Shown piece after piece: positions 20,972-27,922 of a stretch of 64,000 nt of DNA. The notes beneath the pieces were generated by a model, which saw only the letters and a program-made list of their open reading frames with translations, was not told the origin of the DNA and did no database searches. This DNA comes from Pseudomonas sp. G2-4. Lineage in GTDB: Bacteria; Pseudomonadota; Gammaproteobacteria; Pseudomonadales; Pseudomonadaceae. The position numbers and the translations under genes are program-made. How positions within the stretch are numbered: the first letter of the stretch is position 1; every line of letters starts with the position of its first letter. Location: assembly GCF_030064125.1 (NCBI RefSeq), contig NZ_CP125957.1, positions 2,914,001-2,978,000 of the forward strand, given 5' to 3'.

Positions 20972-21130
20972 GTGGGAGCGAGCCTGCTCGCGAAGGCGGC
21001 CTCACAGCCAACCTGTTTCTCCCTGTCGCACTCCAATCCAATTGTGGGAGCGAGCTTGCTCGCGATGACGGCGGCCCGTTCAACATCGATCTCAACTGAC
21101 CCACCGCTATCGCGAGCAAGCTCGCCCACA
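20972..21130. repeat. REP cluster (GTGGGAGCGAGC family)
   Basis: There are three units: GTGGGAGCGAGCCTGCTCGCG at 20972, GTGGGAGCGAGCTTGCTCGCG near 21045, and an inverted unit ending near 21130. This family differs from the GTGGCGAGGG family elsewhere in the window. Confidence 0.85.
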
Positions 21131-21287: not shown

Positions 21288-23303
21288 ATGCAGAGTACGT
21301 TGATCGCTGTGGGCTGTAACCGCTTGCATAAGCGCGATGGCAGTGTGGTTGCGTTTGATGCGGACAAGATCCGTCAGGCGCTGATTGCTGCTGGCAAGGC
21401 CACCGGTGAGTACGCCGAAGCCGAGGCCGAGGGGTTGTTGGAGGCGGTGCTGGTTCGGTTGGAAGGGCAGAATCGCTTGAGCGTCGAGCAGATCCAGGAC
21501 CGCGTCGAGCGGGTGTTGATGGACGCCGGGTTCTTCCTTTCCATGCGCGCCTATATCGTCTACCGCGAACAACACGGACGCCTGCGCCGGGACCGTCGCA
21601 CCCTGGTGGAGGTCGCCACCTCGATGAACGAATACCTGGACCGCGAAGACTGGCGCGTGCAGGCCAACGCCAACCAAGGTTATTCCCTCGGCGGGCTGAT
21701 CCTCAATGTGTCGGGCAAGGTCACCGCCAACTATTGGCTCGACGAGGTCTACAGCCAGGCCATCGGCCAGGCACACCGCGAGGCTGATTTGCACGTCCAC
21801 GACCTGGACATGCTCGCCGGCTACTGTGCCGGTTGGTCCTTGCGCACGCTGTTGCATGAAGGCCTCAATGGCGTGCCAGGGCGGGTCGAGGCCGGGCCGC
21901 CCAAGCATTTGAGTAGCGCTTTGGGGCAGATGGTCAACTTTCTCGGCACCCTGCAGAACGAATGGGCCGGGGCCCAGGCGTTCAGCTCGTTCGACACGTA
22001 CCTGGCGCCCTATGTGCGCAAGGACAGGCTCAGCTATGGCGAGGTTCGCCAGTCGCTGCAAGAGTTCATCTACAACCTCAACGTCCCGTCGCGCTGGGGC
22101 ACGCAAACGCCCTTCACCAACCTCACGTTCGATTGGGTCTGCCCGGAGGATTTGCGTGAACAGATCCCGGTGATCGGCGGCGAAGAGATGCCGTTCGCCT
22201 ACGGTGACCTGCAAGAAGAAATGGAGCTGATCAACCGCGCCTACATCGAGGTGATGCAGGCCGGTGATGCGAAAGGGCGGGTGTTCACCTTCCCGATCCC
22301 GACCTACAACATCACCCATGATTTCCCGTGGGACAGCGAGAACGCCGACCGGTTGTTCGAAATGACCGCCCGTTACGGCCTGCCGTATTTCCAAAACTTC
22401 CTCAACTCGGACATGCAACCCAATCAGGTGCGCTCGATGTGCTGTCGCCTGCAACTGGACGTACGCGAACTGCTCAAGCGCGGTGGTGGCCTGTTCGGTT
22501 CGGCGGAGCAGACCGGCTCATTGGGGGTGGTGACGATCAACTGCGCGCGCCTGGGTTACCTGTACAAGGGCGACACCAGTGCGTTGCTGCAACGCCTCGA
22601 TGCCCTGATGGAATTGGCGATGGAGAGCCTGGAGGTCAAGCGCAAGGTCATCCAGCATCACATGGATGCCGGTTTGTATCCCTACACCAAGCGCTACCTG
22701 GGCACGCTGCGCAATCACTTCTCCACCATCGGTTTGAATGGCCTGCACGAAATGCTGCGCAATTTCACCGATGATCAGCAAGGCACCCACACCGAGCAGG
22801 GCCGTGCGTTCGCCCTGAAGCTGCTGGATCACGTGCGGGCCACGCTGCTGCGTTTCCAGGAAGAAACCGGCCACCTCTACAACCTGGAGGCCACGCCTGC
22901 CGAAGGCACGACTTACCGTTTCGCCAAGGAAGACCTCAAGCGCTATCCCGATATCTTGCAGGCCGGCAGCCCTGTCGCGCCGTACTACACCAACTCGTCG
23001 CAACTGCCGGTGGGGTTCACCGACGATCCGTTCGAAGCCCTGGAATTGCAGGACGAACTGCAGTGCAAATACACCGGCGGCACCGTGTTGCACCTGTACA
23101 TGGCCGAGCAGATTTCCTCGACCCAGGCTTGCAAGCAATTGGTGCGCAAAGCCCTGGGCCGTTTCCGCCTGCCATACCTGACCATCACGCCGACCTTTTC
23201 CATCTGCCCGGTACACGGTTATCTGGCTGGCGAACACGAATTTTGCCCGAAATGCGACGAGGCCTTGCTGCTGCAACAGCAGTTGGCAGGCAGCGTTCAC
23301 TGA
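21288..23303 (+). CDS. nrdD: Anaerobic (class III) ribonucleoside-triphosphate reductase, large part
   Basis: This 671-aa enzyme makes deoxynucleotides without O2. An N-terminal ATP-cone (about 8-95, KRDGSVVAFDADKIRQAL) is followed by the ten-stranded barrel. Candidate catalytic cysteines lie in LDMLAGYCAGWSLRTLL and VRSMCCRLQ. A C-terminal zinc site follows (SICPVHGYLAGEHEFCPKCDE). The polypeptide stops right there and lacks the glycyl-radical motif that normally follows; that motif is in the next small ORF. ATG 21288 (TGGAG upstream) is preferred because the predicted transcript start is near 21236, too close to the upstream ATG at 21240. Confidence 0.93.
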   Translation: MQSTLIAVGCNRLHKRDGSVVAFDADKIRQALIAAGKATGEYAEAEAEGLLEAVLVRLEGQNRLSVEQIQDRVERVLMDAGFFLSMRAYIVYREQHGRLRRDRRTLVEVATSMNEYLDREDWRVQANANQGYSLGGLILNVSGKVTANYWLDEVYSQAIGQAHREADLHVHDLDMLAGYCAGWSLRTLLHEGLNGVPGRVEAGPPKHLSSALGQMVNFLGTLQNEWAGAQAFSSFDTYLAPYVRKDRLSYGEVRQSLQEFIYNLNVPSRWGTQTPFTNLTFDWVCPEDLREQIPVIGGEEMPFAYGDLQEEMELINRAYIEVMQAGDAKGRVFTFPIPTYNITHDFPWDSENADRLFEMTARYGLPYFQNFLNSDMQPNQVRSMCCRLQLDVRELLKRGGGLFGSAEQTGSLGVVTINCARLGYLYKGDTSALLQRLDALMELAMESLEVKRKVIQHHMDAGLYPYTKRYLGTLRNHFSTIGLNGLHEMLRNFTDDQQGTHTEQGRAFALKLLDHVRATLLRFQEETGHLYNLEATPAEGTTYRFAKEDLKRYPDILQAGSPVAPYYTNSSQLPVGFTDDPFEALELQDELQCKYTGGTVLHLYMAEQISSTQACKQLVRKALGRFRLPYLTITPTFSICPVHGYLAGEHEFCPKCDEALLLQQQLAGSVH

Positions 23304-23334
23304 TCCGATCCATCGACCGCAAGGAGCTTCACCC

Positions 23335-23496
23335 ATGAATGCGTCACAAAGCCTTCCACAAGCGCAGCGTCAACGTTGCGAAGTCTGGACCCGCGTGATG
23401 GGTTATCACCGCCCGGTGGCAGCCTTCAACCCGGGCAAACAGTCCGAGCATCGCGAACGGGTGCACTTCACCGAAAGCGCGGCCGGGCGTCCATGA
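23335..23496 (+). CDS. Stand-alone glycyl-radical polypeptide of class III RNR (split NrdD C-terminus)
   Basis: This 53-aa ORF has its own AAGGAG at 23321-23326 and an ATG overlap with nrdG (ATGA). Residues 20-46 read as the glycyl-radical loop that ends ordinary NrdD proteins: R-V-M-G-Y-H-R-P, then F-N-P-G-K-Q-S-E and ERV. Gly23 would carry the radical made by NrdG. It is in a different frame from nrdD and 31 nt beyond its stop. A shape like YfiD/GrcA, the spare radical domain of pyruvate formate-lyase, is an analogy only. It is probably an essential subunit rather than debris, since its reading frame and ribosome site are intact. Confidence 0.8.
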   Translation: MNASQSLPQAQRQRCEVWTRVMGYHRPVAAFNPGKQSEHRERVHFTESAAGRP

Positions 23497-24188
23497 GTCG
23501 AGTGCTACGGGTCGGGGGCATGGTGCCCCTGACCACCCTCGATTATCCGGGCCAACTGGCGTGCGTATTGTTCTGCCAGGGCTGCGCCTGGCGTTGTCGT
23601 TATTGCCACAACCCGCAACTGATCCCGCCGCGCGGCAGCGCGGAGGTGGATTGGTGTCGGGTCTTGGCGTTCCTGCAACGCCGTCAGGACCTGCTCGACG
23701 CCGTGGTGTTCAGCGGCGGCGAACCGACCCTGCAGGACGGCCTGGCGCCAGCGATGGAGGAGGTGCGGCAAATGGGTTTTCGCATAGGCCTGCACAGCGC
23801 CGGGATCAAGCCGGCGGCCTTCGCCAAAGTGGTCGGCCTGGCCGACTGGGTCGGCTTCGACATCAAGGCCTTGCCCGAAGATGCCCTGGACGTGACCCGA
23901 GTCCACGGCAGCGGCGCTGCCAACTGGCGCAGCCTCGACCATCTGCTGGCCAGCGGCGTGGACTATGAATGCCGCACGACCGTGCACTGGCATCTGTTCA
24001 ACCCCGAACGGCTGTTGACCCTGGCCGAACGCTTGAGCGAACGGGGCGTCACGCGGTTTGCCGTGCAACTGGTGCGCACCGAGCGGATGCTCGACCCGCA
24101 TCTTTCCAGCATCTCGGCGCATGGGTTGCAGCCGGAGTTGTGGGCCGCGATGCGTGAGTTGTTTCCTTCGTTTGTGTTGCGTAGTTGA
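23493..24188 (+). CDS. nrdG: Anaerobic RNR activating enzyme NrdG (radical SAM)
   Basis: This 231-aa radical SAM protein has its [4Fe-4S] motif at CAWRCRYC near residues 33-40 and the SGGEPTLQ loop near 75-82. It creates the glycyl radical on class III reductase. It overlaps the small glycyl-radical ORF by 4 nt, which fits co-translation of activator and radical carrier. It is of the longer NrdG/PflA-like type common in pseudomonads, not the 154-aa E. coli form. Confidence 0.92.
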   Translation: MSRVLRVGGMVPLTTLDYPGQLACVLFCQGCAWRCRYCHNPQLIPPRGSAEVDWCRVLAFLQRRQDLLDAVVFSGGEPTLQDGLAPAMEEVRQMGFRIGLHSAGIKPAAFAKVVGLADWVGFDIKALPEDALDVTRVHGSGAANWRSLDHLLASGVDYECRTTVHWHLFNPERLLTLAERLSERGVTRFAVQLVRTERMLDPHLSSISAHGLQPELWAAMRELFPSFVLRS

Positions 24189-24225
24189 GGGAGCGTTGGG
24201 ATGAACGACTGCCCGCCAAACCCCT

Positions 24226-24312
24226 GTGGGAGCGAGCTTGCTCGCGATAGCGGTGGGTCAGCTGCAGTGATGTTGGCTGTGCCGACGTCATCGCGAGCAA
24301 GCTCGCTCCCAC
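24226..24312. repeat. REP-type inverted pair (GTGGGAGCGAGC family)
   Basis: Two inverted units are separated by about 45 bases, between convergent nrdG and ftrD. This is probably the shared transcript end. Confidence 0.85.
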
Positions 24313-24364
24313 AAGGGTTTTGTGTTGAACCCATGTGAGCACCCGCTCCCACAGGTTTTGCGTG

Positions 24365-25732
24365 TCACCACCCCCAAAACTGCAACCACCAACCATAACC
24401 CACCAAGCCGCTGGCCAATATCAGGCACGCCATGCCGGCCAGTCGCTGCACAGGCGATGCCGCCATCTGCTCTAGGCGCTTCCAACCCAGCCACAGGCTC
24501 CAGGCCATCGCCGCCACCAACAGCCCGGCTCGTGCCGGCTGCACCCACTCCAGCAGCAACCCTTCATAGCGCAGCAACTTGACGGTGGTGGCCGACAGGC
24601 CGAGGAACAGGCCTGCACCGCCCACGGGCGTCAGGGTGATGGCCAGGGGCAAATATTCTGCGGGATTACCCGCGAGTCGTGCCGCCAGGCGCATCAGCAG
24701 CATCAGTGAAGTGCCCAGCAGCAGGGCACTCACGCCCAAATAGGCGACGATGCAGAAGCCGTCGAGCCAGCTGAAGCTGTCATTGAGTTGCGGATAGTGC
24801 GTCAGCAGCCACCAAGGCGCGGTGTCTTGCAACGGCCAGAACAGGTCGTGTGCCACCAGCCATTGGGCCAGCGCCTGCTTGAGGGTGATGAACCAGGGGC
24901 TGACGGTCCATTGAAAGGCCCCCATGGCCAGGCCGATGACGCCGAACAACAGCAAGCGTGCATCCCAGGGCGAGAGCGTGGAGGGTGTTGATTGCAGGAT
25001 TTCCTGGTTGCTGGAGCGGGCGATCAGGCGCACCGCATCGCGCTGGCCGCTGCAGCGACCACAGGCGTGGCAATCGCTGGCGCCACGCATGCGGCGGATG
25101 TCCAGCAAGGGCGCGCAGTTGGGCGCGGGGCGGCGCGGCGCTGGGTTTTCCAGCCAGCGTTGTTCGTCTACTTGAAAGTGCACCGGCGCCAGGCGGGCGA
25201 GCAGGGCGAAGACGCCACTGACCGGACACAGGTAACGGCACCAGACCCGCTTGCCACGGGCGAACAACAGGCCAACGATCACCGCCGCGACGGTTGAGCC
25301 GCCCAGGATCAGCAGAGCCGCCTGGGCATAGTCGTAGACGCTGATGAGTTGGCCATAAATTGTCGTCAGGCAGAACGCCAGGGTCGGCCAGCCGGCCCAG
25401 CGCACGCTTCTCGGCACACCCAGGCCTTTGCCGTAGCGACTGGCCCATTCGCTCAAGGCGCCTTCGGGGCACAGCACGCCACACCAGAGCCGACCAAACA
25501 ACACGATCGAGAGCAACACGAACGGCCACCACAGGCCCCAGAACAGAAATTGCGCCAGCAGCGTGAGGTTGTCGAACAGATGCGCCTGACTGCTGGGCAA
25601 TGGCAACAAGGCGGGTATCACCAGCAGCACCGCATAGAACAGCACCACCGCCCATTGCACGGCACGAATGGTCGCGCCGTGGCGCCTCATACCGTCGCCC
25701 AGGCGCTGGAGCCAGGGGTTCAGGTGAGGCAT
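24365..25732 (-). CDS. ftrD: FtrD: membrane 4Fe-4S polyferredoxin-like protein of iron uptake
   Basis: This 455-aa polytopic membrane protein has NapH/CcoG-like cysteine groups: LWCGVLCPEGA near 107-117, VWCRYLCPVSG near 190-200, and DCHACGRCSGQR near 243-254. In Bordetella FtrABCD the equivalent subunit is thought to pass electrons to re-reduce or release iron at the permease. The chosen start gives MPHLNPWLQ and overlaps ftrC by 13 nt; the frame open further upstream lies inside ftrC. It is last in the ftr operon. Confidence 0.85.
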   Translation of the reverse strand: MPHLNPWLQRLGDGMRRHGATIRAVQWAVVLFYAVLLVIPALLPLPSSQAHLFDNLTLLAQFLFWGLWWPFVLLSIVLFGRLWCGVLCPEGALSEWASRYGKGLGVPRSVRWAGWPTLAFCLTTIYGQLISVYDYAQAALLILGGSTVAAVIVGLLFARGKRVWCRYLCPVSGVFALLARLAPVHFQVDEQRWLENPAPRRPAPNCAPLLDIRRMRGASDCHACGRCSGQRDAVRLIARSSNQEILQSTPSTLSPWDARLLLFGVIGLAMGAFQWTVSPWFITLKQALAQWLVAHDLFWPLQDTAPWWLLTHYPQLNDSFSWLDGFCIVAYLGVSALLLGTSLMLLMRLAARLAGNPAEYLPLAITLTPVGGAGLFLGLSATTVKLLRYEGLLLEWVQPARAGLLVAAMAWSLWLGWKRLEQMAASPVQRLAGMACLILASGLVGYGWWLQFWGW

Positions 25733-26574
25733 GGCAGGTTTTCCGCCTTGCGTGGCCGCAACCATCCGGCGACGGCCAGCCAATAGCCGAGCCATACCAG
25801 CAACGTCAGCGCGCTGGGACTGGCGCGATACCCGGCGAAATCGGCGAGGAAACCACCCAAGCCATGACCGTCGTCCAGTATCGCGCTGCTGTTCCACAGT
25901 GCATCGCCGATGCCGCGGTACACCGGCTCGGGCCAATCCATCGCGAGCAATTGCCCGCCGACCCGCTCGATGCCGCTGACCAGCAACGCCGCGCCCAACA
26001 GCAGCAGGATCGCTTCACTGATGGCGAAGAAACGCGGCCAGGAGATGAACCGGCGACTGCCGTGGAGCAAGGAAACGGTCAACAGCGCCAGCACCAGGCC
26101 AGCAATTGCACCCACTGCGAACAGGCCCAGCGGCGGTCCTTGCAAGCGGGCGCCGGCGCCATACAGGAAGACCACGGTTTCACTGCCTTCGCGGCTGACC
26201 GCCAGCAAGGCCAGCACCAGCAAGCCCAGGCCACCCTGGCGGCCCAGGCGCTGGTCGGCCTGGCGCGACAGGTCTTGCTTCAGTGTCCCCGCGTTGCGGT
26301 GCATCCAGCCGACCATCTGCACGATCAACAGACTCGCGATCAATGCCAACGAAGCCTGGAACCATTCATTGGCGGCGCCGCTCATGGCTTCGCCGGCCAG
26401 CAGGATCAGCCCCGCCAGTACGCCCGACAACAGCAAGCCCAGCAGTGCGCCGCTCCAGATGTAGCGCAGCAGTTGGCTGGCCTGTGGCTGTCGACTGACC
26501 CAGGCCTGGAGAATCCCGATCACCAACAACGCCTCGACGCTTTCGCGCCAGACAATAAACATCGATTGAGTCAT
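25720..26574 (-). CDS. ftrC: FtrC: FTR1-family iron permease
   Basis: This 284-aa, seven-segment membrane permease has two REXXE iron-binding motifs, RESVE near residue 9 and REGSE near residue 140, as in yeast Ftr1 and EfeU. It imports oxidised ferrous-derived iron. AGGAGG precedes the ATG at 26574. It lies between the cupredoxin gene ftrB and ftrD in a four-gene system. Confidence 0.9.
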   Translation of the reverse strand: MTQSMFIVWRESVEALLVIGILQAWVSRQPQASQLLRYIWSGALLGLLLSGVLAGLILLAGEAMSGAANEWFQASLALIASLLIVQMVGWMHRNAGTLKQDLSRQADQRLGRQGGLGLLVLALLAVSREGSETVVFLYGAGARLQGPPLGLFAVGAIAGLVLALLTVSLLHGSRRFISWPRFFAISEAILLLLGAALLVSGIERVGGQLLAMDWPEPVYRGIGDALWNSSAILDDGHGLGGFLADFAGYRASPSALTLLVWLGYWLAVAGWLRPRKAENLPCLT

Positions 26575-26596
26575 GCAAACGCCTCCTGCTGGACGA

Positions 26597-26959
26597 TTAC
26601 TGGGCGAGGATGCCGCCCTCGGGCAGTTGCGGATTGAATTCATCGAAAAACGGATAGCGCCCAGGCTGCAGTGGGTGAATCACGACGAAGGTGGTGACGC
26701 CAGGCGACAACACTTTTTCGACCCGCAGGGGCGTGCTCTCGAATTCCGCAGGGCCCTCACCGATATTTTTCAGCACGATCTTGAAACGCTGGCCGGCCGG
26801 GACCTCCAACAGCGGCGGGATGAAATGCCCATCGCGCATGCTCAGCTCGTAAGTCGGCAACTGGGCATGGGCGATGGACGGCAGGACCAAACCGGCCAGC
26901 ATCCACCCGGCCAGGCGTCGATGGCGCGTGACAGGCCGCGCGCAGGTTGGACGACTCAT
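26597..26959 (-). CDS. ftrB: FtrB: periplasmic cupredoxin-like protein
   Basis: This 120-aa protein has a signal peptide (RHRRLAGWMLAGLVLPSIAHA, cleavage after AHA near residue 32) and a cupredoxin-like beta domain. In the Ftr system it is the presumed copper ferroxidase partner. It lacks the Cys ligand of blue copper proteins; possible metal ligands are His and Met residues (MRDGHFIPP, VIHPLQPGRYPF). It starts 2 nt after ftrA ends. Confidence 0.85.
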   Translation of the reverse strand: MSRPTCARPVTRHRRLAGWMLAGLVLPSIAHAQLPTYELSMRDGHFIPPLLEVPAGQRFKIVLKNIGEGPAEFESTPLRVEKVLSPGVTTFVVIHPLQPGRYPFFDEFNPQLPEGGILAQ

Positions 26960-26961
26960 CC

Positions 26962-27492
26962 TCAGTACCCGCCTTTTTTACCAATCCCGGCGTAGACGAA
27001 TTCGTAATGCAGTTCGCAGCGTTCGAACCACGGCGCTACGCCGGTTTCCTTGTCGGTGTGACGACCGAGGGAACCGTGGCCGCCGGGTGGCAGGACGGTG
27101 AAGGTCAGTTGGTATTTGCCGGGGCCGAGCAGCTTCACGTTGTCGCCGTAGTGGGGGCCGTCATTGGCGACCATGGCATGGAAATCGCCCTTCAGTTCGG
27201 TGTCGTCACCCTGTTTCTTCAATTGGAAGGACACGTTGAGGTAGGGCACGAAGCTGCCTTCCTGGAAGCCTTGTTTGTTGTCCGCCGTGGCGCGGATGTC
27301 GGCCTCCAGGTGCACGTCAGAATCAGCCGTGGCCCGCATCATGCCGGCCGGGGCCATTTCGATCGGTTGCAGATACACCGCGCCGACCTCCAGCCCTGGG
27401 CACATTTGTGGTTCGCCGATAGGGTATTCCTTGGCCTGGGCCAGGGGTGTGAGAAACAGCAGGGCGAGAGACAGGGGGGCAAGCGTGCGCAT
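26962..27492 (-). CDS. ftrA: FtrA: periplasmic P19-type iron/copper-binding protein
   Basis: This 176-aa protein has a clear signal peptide ending LAQA (residues 1-19). It is the P19/Tp34 family component that binds iron in the periplasm. Likely ligands lie in YPIGEPQMCPGLEVGAVYLQ and in the His of FHAMVANDGPHYGDN. AGGAAG sets the ATG at 27492. It is the first gene of ftrABCD and is preceded by a Fur-box-like sequence. Confidence 0.9.
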   Translation of the reverse strand: MRTLAPLSLALLFLTPLAQAKEYPIGEPQMCPGLEVGAVYLQPIEMAPAGMMRATADSDVHLEADIRATADNKQGFQEGSFVPYLNVSFQLKKQGDDTELKGDFHAMVANDGPHYGDNVKLLGPGKYQLTFTVLPPGGHGSLGRHTDKETGVAPWFERCELHYEFVYAGIGKKGGY

Positions 27493-27544
27493 GATGACTT
27501 CCTGGACGACTAAAAGATGGCCGAGTCTAGGAGGCATCGCTGCG

Positions 27545-27620: not shown

Positions 27621-27634
27621 TTGATCGTGATCAA
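27621..27634 (+). promoter_or_regulatory. Perfect Anr/Dnr box upstream of the DUF3079 gene
   Basis: TTGAT-CGTG-ATCAA matches the consensus completely. The predicted start is near 27669, and TAGGGT at 27657-27662 is in -10 position on the plus strand. No similar hexamer is placed for the divergent ftrA. Confidence 0.8.
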
Positions 27635-27694: not shown

Positions 27695-27922
27695 ATGGCA
27701 AAGCCTTTTCCCATCAGTCCCAAACATCCTGAGCGCATTTGCTGGGGTTGTGATCGTTACTGTCCGACCAATGCCCTGGCCTGCGGGAATGGTGCCGACC
27801 GAACGATGCACCCGGCCGAGATGATTGGAGATGACTGGTACTTGCATGGTGATTGGGGGCTGGAGCTGGTGGACATTACCGCCAAGGTCATCGATCCAAG
27901 TGCAACTTACCTGAAGGAATGA
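27695..27922 (+). CDS. DUF3079 small cysteine-rich protein
   Basis: This 75-aa cytosolic protein of unknown function fits DUF3079. Four cysteines are clustered at C16, C19, C23 and C30 (CWGCDRYCPTNALAC), a ferredoxin- or zinc-like spacing, and the C-terminal half is rich in Trp, Asp and Glu. It is a monocistronic gene behind a consensus Anr/Dnr box, so it is probably made when O2 is low. A role in metal binding or redox sensing is inference only. Confidence 0.82.
   Translation: MAKPFPISPKHPERICWGCDRYCPTNALACGNGADRTMHPAEMIGDDWYLHGDWGLELVDITAKVIDPSATYLKE

Follow-up and report, generated by a model that had tools for sequence, protein, structure and literature searches.

The class III ribonucleotide reductase is described in a 2014 review, which also covers a split class II enzyme, as NrdD with a glycyl radical in its C-terminal domain, plus NrdG (PMC4009431). 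In the NrdD of P. copri, the Cys/His site is counted within the glycyl radical domain (PMC11226230). The one-chain NrdD/NrdG systems with solved structures (1h78, 4coi, 8p2s and 9d3x) resemble the locus analysed here in their family profile, ATP-cone, fold, Cys/His site and adjacent NrdG, but here the radical loop lies on its own polypeptide and the last 32 profile positions are missing from NrdD.

Small free-standing proteins with a radical loop are known as cofactors of PFL, namely YfiD/GrcA of E. coli and Y06I, which is borne by phage T4. In an account of autonomous glycyl radical cofactors, only these are called validated and others possible (PMC8683613). Unlike YfiD/GrcA, the small protein of this locus belongs to the NRDD family and its partner NrdD has no loop of its own, so that the small chain looks obligatory and not merely a repair kit. 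Within the same genus, P. aeruginosa likewise encodes a reductase, NrdJa/NrdJb, in two ORFs, but that split enzyme is of another class, class II (PMC4860495, PMC4009431).

Among 128 phage genomes with RNR genes, six cases of nrdD in pieces are reported; excerpts of that survey relate them to introns, inteins, homing endonucleases or unexplained breaks and describe no free-standing radical domain (PMC3653736). In the open-access excerpts that were searched, no account was found of a class III enzyme divided in this way, with the radical on a chain of its own; two 1999 studies, by Siedow et al. on A. eutrophus NrdD/NrdG and by Jordan et al. on Pseudomonas reductases, may contain an earlier mention.

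One family profile over two reading frames

The stretch of DNA that was analysed, 64 kb from Pseudomonas sp. G2-4 (hereafter the window), contains the nrd operon detailed in Table 1.

Table 1. Features of the nrd operon in the window
Feature	Position	Strand	Description
nrdD	21288..23303	+	671 aa; class III ribonucleotide reductase catalytic subunit; ATP-cone, core and Cys/His site; without radical loop
Separate glycyl-radical-domain gene	23335..23496	+	53 aa, ~6.1 kDa (computed mass); PF13597 positions 531-562; selection
nrdG, radical-SAM activase	23493..24188	+	231 aa; TIGR02495 NrdG2, 211.8 bits against a cut-off of 131
AAGGAG ribosome-binding site of the small gene	23321..23326	+	sequence; 8 nt upstream of ATG
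Radical loop R-V-M-G-Y	23392..23406	+	sequence and NRDD family match; presumed radical Gly23 at 23401-23403
Presumed zinc site of NrdD, C640-P-V-H643 ... C653-P-K-C656	23205..23255	+	stays on the large chain
Anr/Dnr-type box TTGATATCGATCAA	21188..21201	+	86 nt upstream of nrdD ATG; exact TTGATNNNNATCAA match

The NRDD family profile (PF13597, 562 positions) is divided between two of these ORFs. It matches NrdD over positions 2-528 (E 1.3e-174) and the small ORF, with its motif RVMGY...FNPGKQSE, over nearly all of the remainder (E 5.2e-9, with 35.7 bits where the gathering score is 26.2). The N-terminus of NrdD is a PF03477 ATP-cone, and the protein also matches NF006126 with 1132 bits. In a profile search of the whole genome, NRDD matches were restricted to these two ORFs, and no radical motif was detected within the NrdD chain, which stops 15 residues past CPKC. 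The NRDD core, the Cys/His site before the loop and the cognate NrdG of a class III enzyme are thus all present, and the in-chain radical loop is absent.

A sequence-only reading of this DNA had claimed that nrdD stops after its zinc site and lacks the radical loop, and that the radical motif, assigned from family knowledge, lies in a separate frame with its own AAGGAG and an ATGA overlap with nrdG. The end of the profile match in NrdD, the score of the small ORF above the gathering threshold and the coordinates in the sequence, with the small-gene stop TGA (23494-23496) overlapping the nrdG ATG (23493-23495), bear this out, and no full-length radical motif turned up inside nrdD or as another NRDD match in the genome. 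Its description of the separate piece as a glycyl-radical domain held for the loop and tail, which are detached, but not for the Cys/His site, which is kept on NrdD. Because this site remains on NrdD, the cut passes through the glycyl radical domain as named in the P. copri enzyme; the detached part is the radical loop and the tail only.

The four residues of this site (C640, H643, C653 and C656 in L004 numbering, which agrees here) are invariant in all 33 rows of alignment A7, their zinc being presumed, and R-V-M-G-Y is invariant across eight free copies (alignment A1). The small protein shares with GrcA/YfiD the form of a small free-standing radical-loop protein, but neither homology to the PFL C-terminus nor a target with its own radical domain was found, and at E up to 1 Pfam lists no PFL-type glycine-radical family for the 53-aa ORF. 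A PDB sequence search with this short query returned no class III match.

A cysteine of the window protein, C15 (in CEVWTRVMGY), eight residues N-terminal to the radical glycine, is near-invariant. Of the copies matched by a sequence pattern, 153 of the 156 from cells and 75 of the 79 from viruses have its equivalent; the one-chain L076 and L102 have Thr instead.

Two TTGATNNNNATCAA boxes, which we take to be of the Anr/Dnr consensus, were found in the window against 0.03 expected, and none of 100 shuffles contained two or more. A Dnr box has been described in the P. aeruginosa nrdDG promoter (PMC5645315). The genes upstream of nrdD encode the gamma subunit of a nitrate reductase, a rotamase of the PpiC type and a MoaA-type protein, neighbours that are consistent with anaerobic nitrate respiration. 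Scans for sigma-70 promoters and terminators gave no signal above shuffles.

Other features were noted around the operon. The second perfect TTGATNNNNATCAA box lies at 27621-27634, and a small DUF3079 gene (27695-27922) starts 60 nt downstream of it. By eye, GGGAGCGAGCTTGCTCGCGAT-type inverted repeats (REP-like) occur on both sides of the operon, at 21045-21130 and 24225-24315. Beside it, a cluster on the minus strand (24365-27537) encodes a 4Fe-4S-binding-domain protein, an FTR1 iron permease, a cupredoxin and an Fe2+ transport protein.

The small gene in Pseudomonas and beyond

An NRDD match was detected in 32 of 149 sampled Pseudomonas genomes, and in all 32 the second piece lies apart, as confirmed at the DNA level. 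Between the nrdD stop and the small-gene ATG lie 19 to 116 nt, and relative to nrdD the small frame is offset by +1 in 15 genomes, by +2 in 13 and by 0 in the other 4. All 32 have a purine-rich site ahead of the chosen ATG, the script having favoured ATGs with such a site upstream, and the ATGA overlap with nrdG is kept in 28. In G005, G090 and G103, open frames of 756-787 aa were considered as fusions; a stop was found between the pieces, and none is fused.

The two pieces could form one chain after all through a programmed frameshift, stop readthrough or splicing, giving an ordinary enzyme, as their adjacency in most genomes seen and the existence of fusions might suggest. However, the shifting offsets, each with an ATG and a purine-rich site, make a shared frameshift or readthrough very unlikely. 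The same combination of shifting offsets and constant start signals excludes, for practical purposes, a sequencing or assembly error that splits one gene: the split recurs in dozens of assemblies with differing offsets and spacers, so that the relatives are not continuous, as such an error would imply, but split too.

The median pairwise dN/dS of the small ORF in the 32 genomes was 0.116 for the whole and 0.033 for 36 core codons, compared with 0.088 for NrdD (31 of the 32). Of 36 columns for each codon position, 4, 3 and 32 were variable at positions 1, 2 and 3, respectively. Read in its two alternative frames, the small ORF contained 27 and 37 stops. Strong purifying selection therefore acts on the small ORF.

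This selection speaks against a decaying remnant beside a NrdD that is dead or radical-independent, although 117 of the 149 Pseudomonas genomes have no NRDD match and the locus is to that extent dispensable in the genus. Excerpts of two P. aeruginosa studies also make such decay extremely unlikely: NrdD, listed at 76 kDa, was detected anaerobically (PMC12284477), and cell shape under anaerobic conditions is restored, in the absence of B12, by an nrdDG fragment (PMC5645315). In P. stutzeri, proteins of the nrd cluster are reported as induced, and the excerpts of that report do not name the small protein (PMC10433244).

Pseudomonas, in which the sequence-only reading had proposed a survey for the split, agreed throughout but proved too narrow a frame, the split being seen in many Pseudomonadota families, on a Campylobacterota plasmid and in viral contigs. 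In a sample of relatives, 16 of 57 genomes had an NRDD match (14 split, 2 single); in a class sample, 38 of 369 (28 split, 7 single, 3 partial or weak only); and in a phylum sample, 57 of 398 (13 split, 43 single, 1 weak), where G725 was placed with the help of separate evidence. The single-chain genomes that were fetched are mostly distant from the NrdD type of the window in the tree described below.

A scan of named genomes gave at least 576 relatives, and the best 80 loci comprised 76 split ones, three with a single ORF for both pieces (L173, L184 and L190) and one without NrdD within 5 kb (L188); as the scan was seeded with the small protein, these counts are not frequencies. In a protein database, at least 7999 matches to the small protein were obtained, and all 7999 scored candidates, restricted to 0.55-1.75 times its length, match.

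Among seven plasmid records, four were split (Cupriavidus necator pHG1, Bradyrhizobium, Sulfuricurvum and Sulfuricystis) and three had one chain (Acidiphilium, Actinomyces and Geoalkalibacter). In the four split plasmids, the RefSeq name of the small ORF is 'nrdD, anaerobic ribonucleoside-triphosphate reductase'; annotation pipelines thus see the homology, but as nrdD and not as a distinct subunit. In C. necator H16 the small protein has 66 aa. The NrdD of A. eutrophus studied by Siedow et al. in 1999 is reportedly of 76.2 kDa, and its NrdG reportedly of 30.9 kDa. As the product of the pHG1 nrdD frame by itself has a mass of 76,191 Da, the NrdD of that study would be without the loop. The reported NrdG mass disagrees with the 25.4 kDa of the annotated frame.

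Long in-frame, intein-like inserts were seen to break the NrdD cores of L068, L185 and L186, in G303, Thiomargarita and Thiodictyon.

NrdD tree, fusions and copies lying apart

A quick maximum-likelihood tree was built from 106 NrdD cores, with the radical domain excluded. Six loci with inserts or partial genes were left out (L037, L068, L084, L085, L185 and L186), the exclusion of cores of 380 residues or fewer reduced the set to 173, and that of equally labelled near-copies above 93% reduced it further to 106. Some states were set individually: L061 was set to split by its Pfam match, the pattern having missed it; L105 to single, as its profile match reaches the end; and L100 and L101 to single, with the radical match in the same open frame. 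Alignments A2 and A3, in which short GRD rows were misplaced, with an invariant Arg in mid-core, were discarded.

All 77 split rows fell in a single clade of 87 rows, alongside 10 single rows. At least six changes of state are needed on the tree, of which strongly supported branches force only two, and 40 of the 103 inner forks are open. On this tree, most members of a large NrdD clade are split. The one-chain rows inside it (10 of 87) and the 43 one-chain genomes among the 57 matches of the phylum sample are a counterpoint: since one-chain forms exist, class III chemistry can proceed without the split.

The one-chain rows differ in the distance from the CxxC pair to the radical motif, which is 8 residues in L035, L060, L064, L076, L086 and L102 and 16-22 residues in L032, L173, L184 and L033, all in the clade, and 9-12 residues in three rows outside it. 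L032, L173 and L184 were placed among split rows, the placement of L033 being open, and L173 and L184 retain the RQPCEVWTR start typical of the free protein. The long linkers of these four are what a secondary fusion would leave. L076 and L102, whose linkers are short, were likewise placed among split rows and may be old forms or products of recombination.

Copies of the small gene were also found at a distance from nrdD. In G824, the gene lies beside an nrdG-like ORF (by eye), and the pair begins at least 8.4 kb from nrdD, with the long ORFs between nrdD and the small gene mostly on the opposite strand. In the Holosporaceae MAG G960, contig C9 carries nrdD, whereas the small gene lies with nrdG on contig C15. 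Extra copies occur in G961, with two near nrdD and nrdG, and in G436, with a second one (L083:1953-2141, minus strand) beside ssb- and recT-like genes (by eye) and apart from the host nrdD set, which looks like a prophage copy. Whether apart from nrdD or extra, these copies argue for a product that acts in trans, and the separation in G824 and G960, together with the lone genes in viral contigs, is at odds with synthesis of the two pieces as one chain.

AlphaFold2 was run on the L004 read-through, in which NrdD and GRD lie in one frame with one TGA between them, as an artificial tether. The radical piece was modelled at pLDDT 25-43, too weak a prediction to weigh for or against docking; when residues of low confidence were included, 7 of 21 alignments with class III structures reached 705-709, beside Gly704, and 14 ended at 634-662. 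The natural fusion L173 was the better test, and its model has a fold like that of the solved class III enzymes, with aligned ranges that extend into the radical domain, which was predicted at pLDDT 66-71, lower toward its end.

Viral copies and a proposed two-piece reductase

A scan of IMG/VR with the small-protein alignment gave 152 relatives, and the ORF was confirmed by profile in 79 of the best 80 loci (L197-L276), L209 being truncated by the contig end. In the flanks of these best 80 of 152, some of which end near the gene, neither the NrdD core nor an NrdG match was detected (0 of 80 for each), and L211 and L216 showed weak NRDD matches confined to the radical end of the profile. In 50 whole viral records of the 80, the NrdD core was again not detected (0 of 50), all matches lying at profile positions 513-562; as these records span 7.8-108 kb, with no completeness rating as high as 90%, the absence applies to the contigs and not to whole viruses.

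When the scan was made with an NrdD alignment, 54 of the best 80 of 232 were single chains, 23 had the radical ORF apart (doubtful for L314) and 3 showed none in the locus. Viral contigs thus variously bear the complete reductase, its split form or the radical piece on its own.

The function-unknown family phrog_4132 was matched by the window protein and by 5 of 5 viral small proteins tested. With PHROGs on seven viral contigs, structural hallmarks were found in three (L213 tape measure, L247 tail and L256 portal) and replication genes on L203 and L235, and two L248 proteins had no match. Among INPHARED phage records, two weak matches to the window small protein were obtained at E up to 0.1, one of them in the ANMV-1 virus (KP703175; L277:2686-3120), whose host is an uncultured archaeon. 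Its 144-aa protein has Cys pairs and the radical loop and is annotated 'anaerobic ribonucleoside triphosphate reductase'; the whole 38-kb record matches only positions 519-562.

A Cys-rich stretch before the radical loop was seen by eye in L201, L208, L211, L214, L216, L217, L240, L256 and L271, and is perhaps a zinc module of these viral copies' own. On L274, another of the seven contigs, a reverse transcriptase (phrog_1423; L274:2656-3804) lies some 2 kb away from the lone radical domain.

The small protein is most probably an obligatory subunit, activated by NrdG and docking on NrdD, of a two-piece class III reductase. This subunit role, which the sequence-only reading had offered as an inference, is strengthened by the purifying selection, the natural fusions, the separation in G824 and G960 and the lone viral copies. 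In such an enzyme, NrdD would contribute the ATP-cone, the zinc ribbon and the barrel, which bears the loop of the thiyl-radical cysteine (presumably C385/C386), and the 53-aa protein the glycyl-radical loop and C-terminal tail, docking in trans at the site of the C-terminus of a one-chain NrdD. NrdG with S-adenosylmethionine would generate the radical on Gly23 of the 53-aa protein, and this would in turn produce the radical on the active-site cysteine.

Oxygen cleaves glycyl-radical chains at the radical glycine. Because of this, and by analogy with YfiD, a replaceable part is the likely benefit of the split: after oxygen damage only the 6-kDa piece would be lost, and the 76-kDa NrdD could be re-armed. 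The same logic would apply if the small chain with its radical loop were a YfiD/GrcA-like spare part or a regulator, used after damage only and not as a constant subunit, in the way that YfiD and T4 Y06I repair oxygen-cut PFL (PMC8683613). As NrdD has no radical loop of its own, however, it would depend on the small protein from the outset, and the small gene sits between nrdD and nrdG, which makes a role limited to repair or regulation decidedly unlikely.

Beyond the constant-subunit role, the small protein might be a mobile, general radical carrier, a replaceable subunit in bacteria, at an oxygen cost of 6 kDa, and in phages a lone copy that arms or re-arms the host NrdD, as T4 Y06I does for its own target. 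The lone viral copies suggest the phage part, and we consider this broader proposal about evenly poised.

If the radical lies on a separate small protein, the picture of class III changes for Pseudomonas, Cupriavidus, Bradyrhizobium and other Pseudomonadota. Studies of NrdD plus NrdG would then miss a subunit, and constructs chosen by the name 'nrdD' could be inactive. The lone viral copies, of which the five tested match phrog_4132, would acquire a specific functional hypothesis.
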